64,000 nt of DNA from Nitrosophilus labii (GTDB taxonomy: Bacteria; Campylobacterota; Campylobacteria; Campylobacterales; Nitratiruptoraceae). Where the stretch lies: NCBI RefSeq assembly GCF_014466985.1, contig NZ_AP022826.1, positions 1-64,000 on the forward strand. Direction: 5' to 3'. The notes below the pieces were generated by a model that worked only from the letters and a program-made list of their open reading frames with translations, did not search any database and was not told where the DNA came from. Made by a program: the position numbers and the translations under genes. This document shows positions 12,145 to 56,386 of this stretch, piece after piece. The first letter of the stretch is position 1. Each line of letters begins with the position of its first letter.

Positions 12145-12217
12145 TTAGTAGATAGTTGATGGTTAATAGTTAATTGATTTTAACTGTTTACTATAAACTA
12201 TCGACTATCCACTAACA
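12145..12217. repeat. Inverted array of degenerate 7-bp words, locus 1
   Basis: The left arm (TTAGTAGATAGTTGATGG onward) is the near-complement of the right arm. The right arm is a run of ACTATNN-type heptamers (ACTGTTT, ACTATAA, ACTATCG, ACTATCC). It fills the gap between the two serine tRNA genes. Architecture is shared with loci near 30.6, 37.1, 39.6 and 50.8 kb. Confidence 0.7.
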
Positions 12218-12408: not shown

Positions 12409-12487
12409 CAATGCTTTGCATAAGTGCTCGAAACTCTAATGTGTGTTAACAATTTTTTCGACAAGCAGTTGTCGAAAAAATTCCATA
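12409..12487. repeat. tRNA-associated repeat, copy A, with 14-bp hairpin
   Basis: This copy contains a perfect hairpin (12451-12464 with 12469-12482, loop GCAG). The preceding roughly 40 bp (TTTGCATAAGTGCTCGAA, then GTGTGTTA) recur near 39.7 kb beside tRNA-Val. The hairpin ends in runs of A and T on both sides, so it can act as a bidirectional terminator. Confidence 0.7.
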
Positions 12488-30559: not shown

Positions 30560-30705
30560 ATTGGGTAAAGCAGAGAAGCAAAGAAGCAGTAAAGCAGTGA
30601 AGATTTGAAAAAATTGAAACTCATTAGTCTCCTCTTCACAGCTTTCCTGCTTCACAGCTTCACACCTAAACTAACACCAACACTAACACTAAACACTAAT
30701 TATAA
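30560..30705. repeat. Inverted array of degenerate 8-bp words, locus 2
   Basis: The left arm runs AAAGCAG, AGAAGCAA, AGAAGCAG, TAAAGCAG. The right arm runs CTTCACAG, CTTTCCTG, CTTCACAG, CTTCACAC, its near-complement. A further repetitive run (AACACTAACACTAAACACTA) follows up to the sufE ribosome site. Located between sufD and sufE. Confidence 0.7.
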
Positions 30706-30717
30706 AAAGGAACAAAA

Positions 30718-31149
30718 ATGAAAAGTATGGATGAGGTTTTAGCTGAAATTAAAGAAGATTTCGAGCTTTTAGGTGATTCTGATGCGATAGTTGAGTATAT
30801 TATCGAATTAGGCAAACAAAATGATATGAGACTAAAACCTGAAGAAAAAAATGATAAAACATTAATTAAAGGGTGTTCTTCACCGGCTTGGATGATTGAA
30901 GAGTGTAAGGATGGAAAGGTATATTTTAGAGTAGAAGGTAGTTCATCAATGGCAAAAGGAATGATTCCTCTTTTGCTGAAGATTTTTAATGATAGAACAC
31001 CAGATGAGATTTTAAACTTTGACCCTAAAAAACTTTGTGAACTAGGGTTTGATAAGATTTTAAGCCCAACAAGATTGCAGAGTATGGAGGCTTTTTTAAA
31101 TAGAATCTATGCTTTTGCTAAAAAGTGTAAAGAAGATATTGGACATTAG
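30718..31149 (+). CDS. sufE: Sulfur acceptor protein SufE
   Basis: SufE accepts persulfide sulfur from a cysteine desulfurase and passes it to SufB. The 143 residues include the acceptor cysteine C53 in KGCSSPAWM, and the family end in LSPTRLQSMEAFLNRIYAFA. AAAGGAACAAAA precedes the ATG. No cysteine desulfurase gene (sufS or iscS) is in the window, so the partner must lie elsewhere. Confidence 0.94.
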   Translation: MKSMDEVLAEIKEDFELLGDSDAIVEYIIELGKQNDMRLKPEEKNDKTLIKGCSSPAWMIEECKDGKVYFRVEGSSSMAKGMIPLLLKIFNDRTPDEILNFDPKKLCELGFDKILSPTRLQSMEAFLNRIYAFAKKCKEDIGH

Positions 31150-31312
31150 ATGTAGTAATTTTGTAATTGGTGTATTAGTATATTGGCATATTAGGAGTTT
31201 GGAATTAAATAATTAAATATAGTATAGCTAAATGCTATTTAATTTTTTAAATCTTTTTAATTTCTAAACATATTTTACACTTAATTATTTTAATTAAACT
31301 AAAGGAGTAGTT
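31150..31312. repeat. Single-arm run of degenerate 8-bp words between sufE and sufT-like gene
   Basis: From about 31160 the sequence repeats words of the type GTATATTR (GTGTATTA, GTATATTG, GCATATTA, GGAGTTTG). No matching opposite arm is found. A weak hairpin with arms around AAATAG/CTATTT follows near 31215-31245. Confidence 0.45.
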
Positions 31313-36045: not shown

Positions 36046-36100
36046 ATTTTAAAAATAAATATATACTTAATTGATTTTTGTTTTTACGATAGAAACTAAA

Positions 36101-36274
36101 TTTAACCCGGATTTTGCAATAGAATTTGTTTCTCTACGCCTTTGCTTGAGATTTAGAGGCTTTTTAAAAATTTTGAGCTCTTTCTACTCTGGAGTAAATC
36201 AAAAAATTTTTGATTGCCAAAAACCTGGTGTTTAGTACTAATGTGATAAAGTCTATTGCAAAATCTGGGTTTAA
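36101..36274. mobile_element. MITE-like 174-bp element
   Basis: Terminal inverted repeats TTTAACCCGGATTTTGCAAT.. (36101-36123) and the complement of 36252-36274 match at about 21 of 23 positions. The 130-bp interior has no significant frame. It contains a smaller inverted pair around AAAAATTTTGAGC and AAAAAATTTTTGA. This looks like a non-autonomous transposable element or the deletion relic of one. It lies in the 380-bp gap between yfdX and tRNA-Pro, otherwise without features other than the yfdX promoter. Confidence 0.55.
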
Positions 36275-36352
36275 TATAAAATGTAATTGAAGCGATACTT
36301 TAAGATTAAGATTTTGAAGGACAGTGCTTTATGTAATAAGTGGAGGAAAAGA

Positions 36353-37132: not shown

Positions 37133-37206
37133 GAGGTAATTGGTAATTTGGAATTGGGAGTTTGTGTTTTTTAAATAAACTAATTCCTAATTCCCAATTC
37201 CAAATT
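37133..37206. repeat. Inverted array of degenerate 7-bp words, locus 3
   Basis: The left arm GGTAATTTGGAATTGGGAG is the near-complement of the right arm AATTCCTAATTCCCAATTCC. Words are of the GGAATTR type, as at locus 4 near 39.6 kb. It lies between infC and rpmI, inside an otherwise conserved ribosomal operon. Confidence 0.75.
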
Positions 37207-39577: not shown

Positions 39578-39664
39578 ATGGAATTGGGAATTAGGAATTG
39601 GGAACTTGTTAATTAAAATCTTATTGTCAATTCCCAATTCCTAATTCCTAATTCCTAATTCCGA
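39578..39664. repeat. Inverted array of tandem 7-bp words, locus 4
   Basis: The left arm is GGAATTG, GGAATTA, GGAATTG, GGAACTT. The right arm, from 39628, is AATTCCC then AATTCCT three times. The loop is about 20 bases. It is the clearest example of the heptad architecture. It lies just upstream of thrS. Confidence 0.85.
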
Positions 39665-39685: not shown

Positions 39686-39765
39686 GCTATGTTTTGCATA
39701 AACGCTCGAAGCTTTAAGGTGTGTTAGCAATTTTTTCGACAACTGCTTGTCGAAAAAATTCCATA
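39686..39765 (-). terminator. tRNA-Val terminator within tRNA-associated repeat, copy B
   Basis: A perfect 14-bp hairpin (39729-39742 with 39747-39760, loop CTGC on the plus strand) starts five bases past the CCA end of tRNA-Val and ends in a T-run on the minus strand. The next 40 bp (TTTGCATAAACGCTCGAA, GTGTGTTA) are homologous to copy A at 12409-12487, beyond what a terminator needs. Confidence 0.75.
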
Positions 39766-45859: not shown

Positions 45860-46454
45860 TTTTTACCTTTTCTACGAATACTTCTATCTCTTTTTGTAGA
45901 TGTTTGAGATCTTTTGAGTTGTCTATAACATAGGTTGCCAGCTCTTTTTTCTTTTCTATATCCATCTGAGCGTTTAATCTCTTTTTTGCTTCACCTTCGC
46001 TAAGTTCTTCTCTTTCTAAAACTCTTTTTAGCTGAATCTCTTTTGGAGCGTAAACTACTACGACTTTTTTGATTGGATAGTTTTTTGTTTCGAAAAATAG
46101 AGGAATATCGACTATATAAGGTACTTTATACTTTTCAAGCTTTAGAGACTCTGTTTCGATTTTCTGTTTTATAAGAGGATGTAGAAGCTCTTCTAAACTC
46201 TTTTTTGCTTTTGGCTCGTTAAATATAAGTTTTCCTAGGGCCTTTCTATCGACTTTGCCGTTTTTTATATACTCTTTACCGAAAATTTCGGCAATTTTTT
46301 CCTTTTGTTCTTCCAAAACCTGATGCGCTATTTTATCGGCGTCTATTATGGAAAAACCGTAAAGTTTTAAAATATTACAAACGGTACTTTTGCCAGAGGC
46401 AATACCGCCTGTTAGGGCAATCGCATGCTCGAAAGGGTTTAGTTTGTTTTTCAT
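45840..46454 (-). CDS. coaE: Dephospho-CoA kinase
   Basis: CoaE catalyses the last step of CoA synthesis. The 204 residues contain the P-loop TGGIASGKST, the DADKIAHQV motif and the C-terminal YVIDNSKDLKHLQKEIEVF. The ATG lies at the head of the coaE-dapF-bax unit, 69 bp from speE. Confidence 0.95.
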   Translation of the reverse strand: MKNKLNPFEHAIALTGGIASGKSTVCNILKLYGFSIIDADKIAHQVLEEQKEKIAEIFGKEYIKNGKVDRKALGKLIFNEPKAKKSLEELLHPLIKQKIETESLKLEKYKVPYIVDIPLFFETKNYPIKKVVVVYAPKEIQLKRVLEREELSEGEAKKRLNAQMDIEKKKELATYVIDNSKDLKHLQKEIEVFVEKVKNEFSQI

Positions 46455-47629: not shown

Positions 47630-47857
47630 ATGTGTGGAGATAAAGCACAAAGAATATTAATGGCTATAATGCTGGGCATCTCTATGGGGTTGTTGGCAAA
47701 CCCTGAGACTGTGAAAATCGGATTTGCGTTACAGACATTTATAATAGTTATGATTATAATATTTGCCTTTACAAACTTTTGTCCTAGCCTTTGGTTTTTT
47801 AATAAAGTTTTTGGAAAGTGCGATTGGGATAAGAAAAAAGAAGATAATGAGAGTTGA
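47630..47857 (+). CDS. Small two-helix membrane protein (DUF2892-like)
   Basis: The 75-residue product has two transmembrane segments (RILMAIMLGISMGLLA; TFIIVMIIIFAFTNF). It ends in FCPSLWFFNKVFGKCDW, similar to the FCPLY...C end of DUF2892-type domains. AAAGGAGG lies five bases before the ATG at 47630; an upstream TTG is not needed. It lies ahead of purM after a 266-bp stretch with no other evident gene. Function unknown. Confidence 0.65.
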   Translation: MCGDKAQRILMAIMLGISMGLLANPETVKIGFALQTFIIVMIIIFAFTNFCPSLWFFNKVFGKCDWDKKKEDNES

Positions 47858-47880
47858 TAGTTGAAAGTTAAGGAAAATTG

Positions 47881-50228: not shown

Positions 50229-50293
50229 TTTGCCTCCTTAAAGCAAGCTTAGATATAATATAGTTAAATTAATCTTCTATGTCAAGGAGGGCT

Positions 50294-50737
50294 ATGATTG
50301 CGTTGATCCAAAGAGTTAAACGAAGTAGTGTGAAAGTTGATGGAAAATTGATAAGTGAAATAGGGCAGGGGTTGAACATACTTCTTGGAGTTTTTAAAGA
50401 TGATAGTGAGAAAGATATAGAAAAGCTTGTGAAAAAGGTTGTAAATCTAAGAATCTTTGCCGATGAAGAGGGTAAAATGAATTTGAGTTTAAAGGATATT
50501 GGTGCAGAAGTTTTAGTGGTTTCTCAGTTTACTTTAGCAGGAAGCGTAAAAAAAGGAAGAAGACCTAGTTTTGATTCTGCTATGGCTCCAGATGATGCTG
50601 AAAAATTTTATGAGAAATTTTGTGATGAGATGGAAAAAGAGGTGAAGGTAAAAAAAGGAATTTTTGGCGCTATGATGGAGGTTGAAATAGTTAATGACGG
50701 ACCTGTAACTTTTATAGTCGATTCGAAAATTTTATAG
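50294..50737 (+). CDS. dtd: D-aminoacyl-tRNA deacylase
   Basis: Dtd removes D-amino acids and glycine mischarged on tRNA. The ATG at 50294 gives MIALIQRVKRSSVKVDG, matching the family start, and lies right after AAGGAGG. The upstream in-frame ATG at 50279 is thus not preferred. The SQFTL motif and the proline in NDGPVTF (Gly-cisPro type) are present. 147 residues is usual. Confidence 0.96.
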   Translation: MIALIQRVKRSSVKVDGKLISEIGQGLNILLGVFKDDSEKDIEKLVKKVVNLRIFADEEGKMNLSLKDIGAEVLVVSQFTLAGSVKKGRRPSFDSAMAPDDAEKFYEKFCDEMEKEVKVKKGIFGAMMEVEIVNDGPVTFIVDSKIL

Positions 50738-50756: not shown

Positions 50757-50836
50757 GGAGTAAGGAGGTAAGTATATTGGTGTATTGGGAAAAAGATAGA
50801 AAAAACCAATACACAAATATACCAATATACTAGTTT
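50757..50836. repeat. Inverted array of degenerate 8-bp words, locus 5
   Basis: The left arm GTATATTGGTGTATTGGG is the near-complement of the right arm CCAATACACAAATATACC then AATATAC. The loop is about 18 bases. It lies between dtd and the pgeF gene and could terminate dtd transcripts. Confidence 0.75.
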
Positions 50837-50891: not shown

Positions 50892-51587
50892 TTGAAAGTA
50901 AACTATCTTTTTACCGATAGATACGGAGGAGTTAGCAAAGGCTTTTATGAGAGCTTCAATCTTGCTTTGCATGTTGGAGACAATAAAAATAATGTTTTGA
51001 AAAACAGAGAGATTCTAAGAAGAAGAGTAGGGGAAAAAGAGCTAATATTTATGGAGCAGATTCACTCCGATAAAATAGAGATAGTAGAGCATGATAAAAA
51101 AAGATATATATGCGATGCCCTTATAACCGATAGAGAGGATATAGCTTTATGCGTAATGGTGGCTGATTGTATCCCTATTTTGATGTTTGATGAGAAAAAA
51201 GGTGTCATTGCCGCCATTCATAGCGGTAGAAAAGGTACTTTTTTAGATATAGCTAAAAAATGTGCTGATAAAATGGTTCAAACTTTCGGTTGTAGTGCCC
51301 AAAATATTAAAGCTATTTTTGGACCTTCGATCAAAAGTTGCTGTTATGAGATTGGCTATGAGATTGTTGATATCGTTTTGAAAAAATATGGAGAGAAATA
51401 TTTAAAAGATAGAAGATATCTTGATATAGCTTCTATAAATAGAGATTCGTTGATTAGATTAGGATTGAGGGAAGAAAATATAGCGATAAGCGCTATTTGT
51501 ACATGCTGCAGTGAAAGATATTTTTCATATAGAAGAGAAAAACAAACCGGTAGGTTTGTAGGAGTTATATGGAGGGAGGAGAGATGA
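50892..51587 (+). CDS. pgeF: Peptidoglycan editing factor PgeF (YfiH, laccase-like domain)
   Basis: PgeF hydrolyses aberrant muropeptides and belongs to the multicopper-laccase-like fold. The 231 residues include the metal-site motifs EQIHSDKIEIV, VADCIPILMFD and IAAIHSGRKGTFL. The late GPSIKSCCYEI block is also present. The start is TTG at 50892 after AAAGGATT. It overlaps the next gene by four bases. Confidence 0.93.
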   Translation: MKVNYLFTDRYGGVSKGFYESFNLALHVGDNKNNVLKNREILRRRVGEKELIFMEQIHSDKIEIVEHDKKRYICDALITDREDIALCVMVADCIPILMFDEKKGVIAAIHSGRKGTFLDIAKKCADKMVQTFGCSAQNIKAIFGPSIKSCCYEIGYEIVDIVLKKYGEKYLKDRRYLDIASINRDSLIRLGLREENIAISAICTCCSERYFSYRREKQTGRFVGVIWREER

Positions 51588-56309: not shown

Positions 56310-56386
56310 TATCTCTTTCTTGGTTAAGTTATTAAGTAGTTAAATTGTCGAGTCGAAAAAATCACTATTTAAATACTCAACTTTTT

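Follow-up and report, generated by a model that had tools for sequence, protein, structure and literature searches.

Why should intergenic spacers carry short tandem repeats that face each other around a small loop, built to one plan from words that differ from spacer to spacer? The question arises from 64,000 nucleotides of the Nitrosophilus labii genome (hereafter the window), for which the original prediction placed five inverted arrays of degenerate 7-8-nt words at 12145-12217, 30560-30705, 37133-37206, 39578-39664 and 50757-50836. The genome that contains the window, here G000, comprises 2.09 Mb on two contigs, and the genus is represented by G000-G004. Gene calls are long open reading frames (simple ORF calls) together with tRNAs found by ARAGORN; infC, thrS and the SufE-like gene were named from translation and gene order, and rpmI from its motif. 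Arrays were detected with score thresholds of our own, checked against shuffled sequence.

Inverted arrays of the window

All five arrays were borne out when the sequence was read and folded. The fold z scores are -5.8, -4.8, -4.0, -7.7 and -6.5, in the order of the loci given above, and at each locus none of 200 dinucleotide shuffles (0/200) folds as well. A strict search for ungapped inverted repeats returned seven hairpins for the window and 0-2 for shuffled sequence; three of the seven are period-7/8 arrays. A slightly looser search recovered all five loci. The flanking genes are codirectional at every one of them.

The arms, which are listed without strand, consist of a C-poor array and a G-poor partner. 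The locus at 12145-12217 (word ATAGTNN) lies between two tRNA-Ser genes, with its C-poor arm of the 7-nt word NNATAGT at 12145..12174 and its partner, of ACTATNN, at 12180..12217. The infC/rpmI spacer holds a C-poor arm of the GGAATTR type (37135..37162) and a YAATTCC partner (37180..37206), and the tRNA-Val/thrS spacer holds (GGAATTR)n at 39580..39604 and (YAATTCC)n at 39628..39664. Between the ORFs 50279-50737 and 50892-51587, a C-poor arm of the 8-nt word GTATATTG (50772..50788) faces a G-poor arm of CAATATAC (50806..50836). The stretch 30560-30705 had been taken for a single array; what stands is an 8-mer hairpin at 30568-30667, in the spacer between an ORF and the SufE-like gene and upstream of the latter, with a C-poor arm of the 8-nt word GAAGCAGT at 30568..30609 and a G-poor partner of CTTCACAG/CTGCTTCA at 30634..30667, while the C-rich run of the 7-mer AACACTA at 30662..30699 is a separate single array. 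Among the single-arm traces that had also been proposed, the one after the SufE-like gene (31166..31192, GTATATTG type) is a clear 8-nt run, whereas TGAAAGT at 47849..47871 and GTTAAGT/GTTATTAAG at 56329..56350 are weak alone and do not fold. In a congener, clear arrays occupy the counterparts of the spacers at 31149 and 47857; for the trace at 47849..47871 the orthologous spacer with an array is that of G003.

The loci are not CRISPR arrays: the units are contiguous and have no spacers between them. Four of the five are not simple terminators either, as judged by eye from the transcribed strand; the stems are AT-rich, and a T5 run follows the stem at 39578-39664 and nowhere else. A near-identical perfect hairpin of another kind, AATTTTTTCGACAA-GCAG-TTGTCGAAAAAATT, is found beside a tRNA gene at 39726-39763 and at 12454-12483 of the window; its copies have the common flank GCATAA.CGCTCGAA and form a small repeated terminator-like cassette.

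Abundance, words and turnover

Many further loci, rather than none, were found in the genome and in its relatives. Three units of GGAATTR match the whole genome 68 times on the plus and 71 times on the minus strand (139), compared to 1 and 0 for the reversed word. The TATATTGG type gives 8/15 and the GTGAAGCA type 2/4 matches, each against 0/0 for its control; for ACTATNN the figures are 34/38 against 18/5, which is noisy at 3 mismatches, with 13 exact matches. When one mismatch is allowed, the GGAATTR triple has 39, 30, 0 and 0 matches in the congeners, and nearly all other genomes of the order are without it. GGAATTR arrays are thus many in G000, G002 and G003 and absent from G001 and G004, because of which some switch must exist; this contrast inside one genus offers a natural comparison for a genetic cause. 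One set of ATAGTNN and GGAATTR arrays is found three times at equal spacing (G000:1257568, 1532139 and 1939465), and a large region of G000 is therefore triplicated.

In unbiased samples of 464 kb from G000 and 400 kb from G003, intergenic arrays number 25 and 46 at a period of 7 nt, 19 and 19 at 8 nt and 2 and 12 at 9 nt; the counts off the peak are 4 and 3 for a period of 6 nt, and 0 and 5 for one of 10 nt. Words of 7 nt include GTTATTR, GTTAAGR, GGTAGAA and TAGTCAT, those of 8 nt GGTTGAGT and GTTAGAAA, and those of 9 nt GTTGAGTAA; along some single arrays the word shifts. GGG is not enriched, and ATAGTNN, GTATATTG and GAAGCAGT are without it. A reverse-complement partner lies within 130 bp of 24 of the 50 arrays in G000 and 43 of the 85 in G003, against 0 and 6 with shuffled flanks. 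Tests based on words are not fully independent, since words recur.

The arrays extend well beyond the genus. The exact hairpin (GGAATTR)3-N4-34-(YAATTCC)2 is present in at least 120 stretches, whose record titles cover at least 13 phyla, with isolates (Hymenobacter, Sediminibacterium) among them. Arrays of words other than GGAATTR in these loci number 49, 13 and 6 at 7, 8 and 9 nt, and 6 at 10 nt, in genomes that were chosen for GGAATTR, with about half of the loci coming from one Chloroflexi MAG and many of the genomes being MAGs.

Comparison of orthologous sites for presence, absence and change of length, which the original prediction had proposed as its test, was positive. In family members the five spacers of the window either repeat this architecture in different words or lack an array. 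The tRNA-Val/thrS spacer carries GGAATTR in G000 and G002, a GTATATTG-like word in G006, G012 and G013, ATTGATAT in G008 and TNGTCAY in G007 and G009, and has no array in G004, G010 and G011; word turnover in the other four spacers is similar. Across 164 orthologous gene pairs of G000 and G003, arrays are present in both genomes at 11, in one only at 22 and in neither at 131 (p=3e-7, spacer length uncontrolled), and the words in the shared array spacers are nearly always different. The sites of many G003 arrays measure 0-15 bp in G008 or G005.

Between G000 and G002, two species at ~94% identity (median anchor identity 94.5%), most arrays have stayed in position and differ by whole units, with indels of 7 bp at thrS and 8 bp at sufE, and these differences support the slippage that had been suggested. 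Larger changes are also seen. The hairpin at 276122-276217 was replaced whole, being TAGTCNT in G000 and in the outgroup G003 and GGAATTA in G002; at 370524 the new word occupies the inner part only and the gene-proximal part is shared; and one array spacer, 293 bp long, has 0 bp opposite it in the other genome. An excess of wholly divergent spacers among array spacers was not significant in this comparison (4/16 vs. 3/28, p=0.24). At G000:46454-46523 a non-periodic perfect hairpin stands where G002 (L314:11757-11857) has a GTATATTG hairpin, one hairpin kind replacing another.

The recurrence of the same words at many loci and the exchange of whole hairpins at one site would be expected of dispersed mobile elements, i.e. 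REP/BIME- or MITE-like cassettes that move as units, each with its own word. This is nevertheless very unlikely, and such cassettes were rejected: the word can switch within one array, a fixed sequence is lacking, and no convincing homology was found among the loops of different hairpins. REP/BIME palindromes are spacer hairpins that lie close after stop codons. They are fixed palindromes, whereas the arrays have a tandem word structure, no fixed palindrome and different words at orthologous sites; with words differing between loci, loops unrelated and no one conserved palindrome, assignment to REP/BIME was discarded. A dispersed MITE-like element of ~250 bp with internal inverted repeats and the core AAATTTCACTCAGG..GTAAAACTAACGCTTG..AAATTTTATTAAAAA differs in presence between the two genomes, being found at G000:369402-369972 (absent in G002, L324:8141-8150) and at G002 L332:8737-8940 (absent in G000); an inverted repeat at 36100-36275 of the window may be related to it.

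Polarity, position and relation of the arms

The arrays have a strand bias and an orientation. Their G-rich strand contains 3.6% C (7.4% C for the non-GGAATTR arrays in the loci of other phyla). In spacers with two arrays, one G-rich and one C-rich, the G-rich array comes first in 26 of 26 whichever strand is read, so that the C-poor strand points inward from both sides, and paired non-GGAATTR arrays from elsewhere, mostly other phyla, are likewise inward in 28/28. In eight of the 26 the two words cannot pair, yet all eight (8/8) are inward; unpaired arrays obey the same rule by their position (41 vs. 14, p=0.0004), and array-free spacers do not (84 vs. 128). Inward polarity is thus a property of each side of the spacer and not of pairing. 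An excess of G over C in the 5' arm is seen in 31/34 periodic hairpins and in 60/95 non-periodic ones.

Position within the spacer also follows a rule. In codirectional spacers the median distance of a paired G-rich arm from the stop codon upstream is 1 bp, 6 of 28 starting exactly at its first base, and paired C-rich arms stop short of the following start by a median of 13.5 bp. Array spacers are codirectional in 86% of cases, compared to 68% of all spacers of at least 60 bp, and divergent spacers are rare among them (5/83 vs. 62/319 overall). The upstream stop is TAG at 14 of 33 arrays, against 183 of 889 overall, and stop codons within the words are mildly enriched (446 vs. 396, z 3.3, the words not being independent). 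Stops fall in all frames because 7 and 8 are coprime with 3, and a function of the word as a carrier of stop codons was rejected, the published Xanthomonas words having none. We read the enrichment of stops and the over-use of TAG as a trace of where arrays start.

In codirectional spacers the hairpins lie after a stop codon and before a ribosome site, a location that would suit RNA structures selected between cotranscribed genes, as attenuators, protectors of mRNA ends or processing signals, with words free to change as long as a hairpin stays. Several species do keep some hairpin before thrS with unrelated words, and the exchange at 46454, where a perfect non-periodic hairpin in G000 faces a GTATATTG hairpin in G002, can be taken in the same sense. 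However, arm mismatches on the presumed transcript strand are G-U in 53 cases and A-C in 59, and there is thus no sign that RNA pairing has been kept, on which count selection for such pairing was rejected; many spacers carry arrays that do not pair, and orthologous spacers are often without a hairpin or without any spacer at all. Selection of this kind is an unlikely source of the arrays. An RNA-hairpin role in some spacers may exist, but it is not needed.

The two arms share their word but neither the order of its variants nor their length. Permuting the units does not lower the complementarity between arms, with 1 of 65 arrays at p<=0.05, and arm lengths are uncorrelated (rho -0.18, 18 pairs). 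These results bear on the mechanism favoured by the original prediction, template switching with slippage, in which a nascent strand would fold back on a C-poor stretch, prime with the help of G-T wobble and copy a C-rich arm, after which slippage would multiply the units in both. Inverted partners far above chance (24/50 and 43/85 against 0 and 6) point in this direction, fold-back accounts at once for the presence of the same word in both arms, and wobble self-priming would be expected to give a C-poor 5' arm. In its simple form, however, it predicts concordant arms and needs extra steps for the polarity of non-pairing arrays; with unit order concordant in 1/65, rho at -0.18 and polarity kept in 8/8 non-pairing spacers, template switching is not supported as the generator, and as the sole generator it was rejected on order, length and polarity. 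It fits only together with later slippage, nesting and deletion, and we regard it as possible though doubtful. Later slippage could have erased the concordance of unit order, and nested fold-back with deletions could also leave an inward polarity.

Units of 7-9 nt, C-poor strands that run inward in the 3' direction, and one word with independent unit order on both sides recall fused telomeres, and arrays of telomeres fused head to head have the same geometry as the spacer arrays. A telomerase-like reverse transcriptase that adds templated C-poor repeats to broken ends is nevertheless highly improbable, as the many words per genome would need many templates. The RVT_1 profile was not found in the array-rich G002 and G003, and it is present in G006, G008 and G012, where GGAATTR arrays are few or absent; since RVT_1 does not follow the arrays, this candidate was rejected. 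Loss of the hairpin nuclease SbcCD as a permissive condition was rejected as a general cause by the distribution of SbcD: the protein is lacking throughout the genus, G001 and G004 with no GGAATTR arrays among them, but scores above the cut-off in 11 of the 17 genomes from other phyla that bear arrays.

A possible origin and its significance

The same period spectrum, polarity and position are found for more than ten different words, which supports the shared generating process that had been proposed. The best explanation, a tentative one with somewhat less than an even chance, is that the arrays are products of one ongoing mutational process in which 7-9-nt repeats grow by slippage from both edges of a spacer; under it they would be neither a gene nor a CRISPR array, a terminator family or a mobile element. 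Repeats, with 7 nt favoured, would grow inward to a central junction, mostly between codirectional genes, and on each side the strand with its 3' end facing the junction would be the C-poor one. Each side may lengthen by whole-unit slippage, gather base changes, and be cut short and begin again in another word. Two sides that share a word would give a foldable inverted array, and two with different words would give polarity without pairing. Growth may take place at two facing 3' ends, e.g. at a break or a stalled fork that is later rejoined, and C-poor strands may be favoured because they bulge and slip more easily. Period, polarity, position, whole-unit length change, word replacement and arm discordance are features of the data; the molecular mechanism is putative and unproven, neither an enzyme nor a break having been seen. 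Independent growth does not explain the use of one word on both sides, nor a small list of words that recurs across phyla.

Inverted heptamer arrays are already known in Xanthomonas and Nostoc, and what is new here is the many words and the units of 7-9 nt. The GGGAATC/(GGGANTN)n heptamers of Xanthomonas are degenerate and intergenic, with 70-75 convergent pairs on opposite strands; they lie mostly between codirectional and seldom between divergent ORFs, nearer to one ORF, and differ in length and sequence between two species (Rehm et al. 2015, PMC4692102). The same paper quotes an older proposal, in which heptamers correspond to the length of DNA that the polymerase holds. Degenerate intergenic tandem units of 7 nt and convergent pairs are common to both systems, with 8- and 9-nt units here as well. 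Xanthomonas, however, has one G-rich word per genome with G-quadruplex potential, whereas the present arrays use many words of 7-9 nt, mostly without GGG and different at orthologous spacers.

In the P6b stem of the Nostoc tRNA-Leu(UAA) intron, heptads occupy both sides of one stem; the motifs on the 5' side, TDNGATT and NNTGAGT, are poor in C, and one of the motifs has taken the place of the other repeatedly. Units were gained and lost on one side or on both (Kaasalainen et al. 2015, PMC4476775). That case is confined to one locus in a group I intron, whereas the present arrays are spread over spacers genome-wide; an Rfam search of the window found no intron, and the arrays are intergenic. 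The heptamer direct repeats of cyanobacteria and Beggiatoaceae (STRR; TAACTGA) form intergenic arrays of one word in distantly related phyla (MacGregor 2015, PMC4679880). Only a single inverted case was reported among them, whereas half of the arrays described here have an inverted partner. A literature search for the array words themselves returned matches from unrelated fields, mainly Drosophila.

Earlier descriptions of heptamers (Xanthomonas, Nostoc, Beggiatoa) each dealt with a single genome and a single word. The rules given here hold across words, loci and many phyla: units of 7-9 nt, the C-poor strand inward, extension from edge to edge between stop codon and ribosome site, and replacement of words in place. 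Such rules suggest one common mutational mechanism and make it testable by strain sequencing. It is conceivable, and on balance rather unlikely, that many phyla share a process in which an interrupted spacer gains C-poor 7-9-nt repeats at both of its 3' ends, as at a telomere without telomerase, and the ends are then fused head to head, the spacer staying a hot spot of word replacement. If true, new intergenic sequence and operon hairpins would arise in large part from such breakage, extension and joining. The rules themselves show that some operon hairpins may be products of mutation and not regulatory elements kept by selection, and their recurrence in many other phyla points to a common and little understood route by which bacterial DNA gains new sequence.
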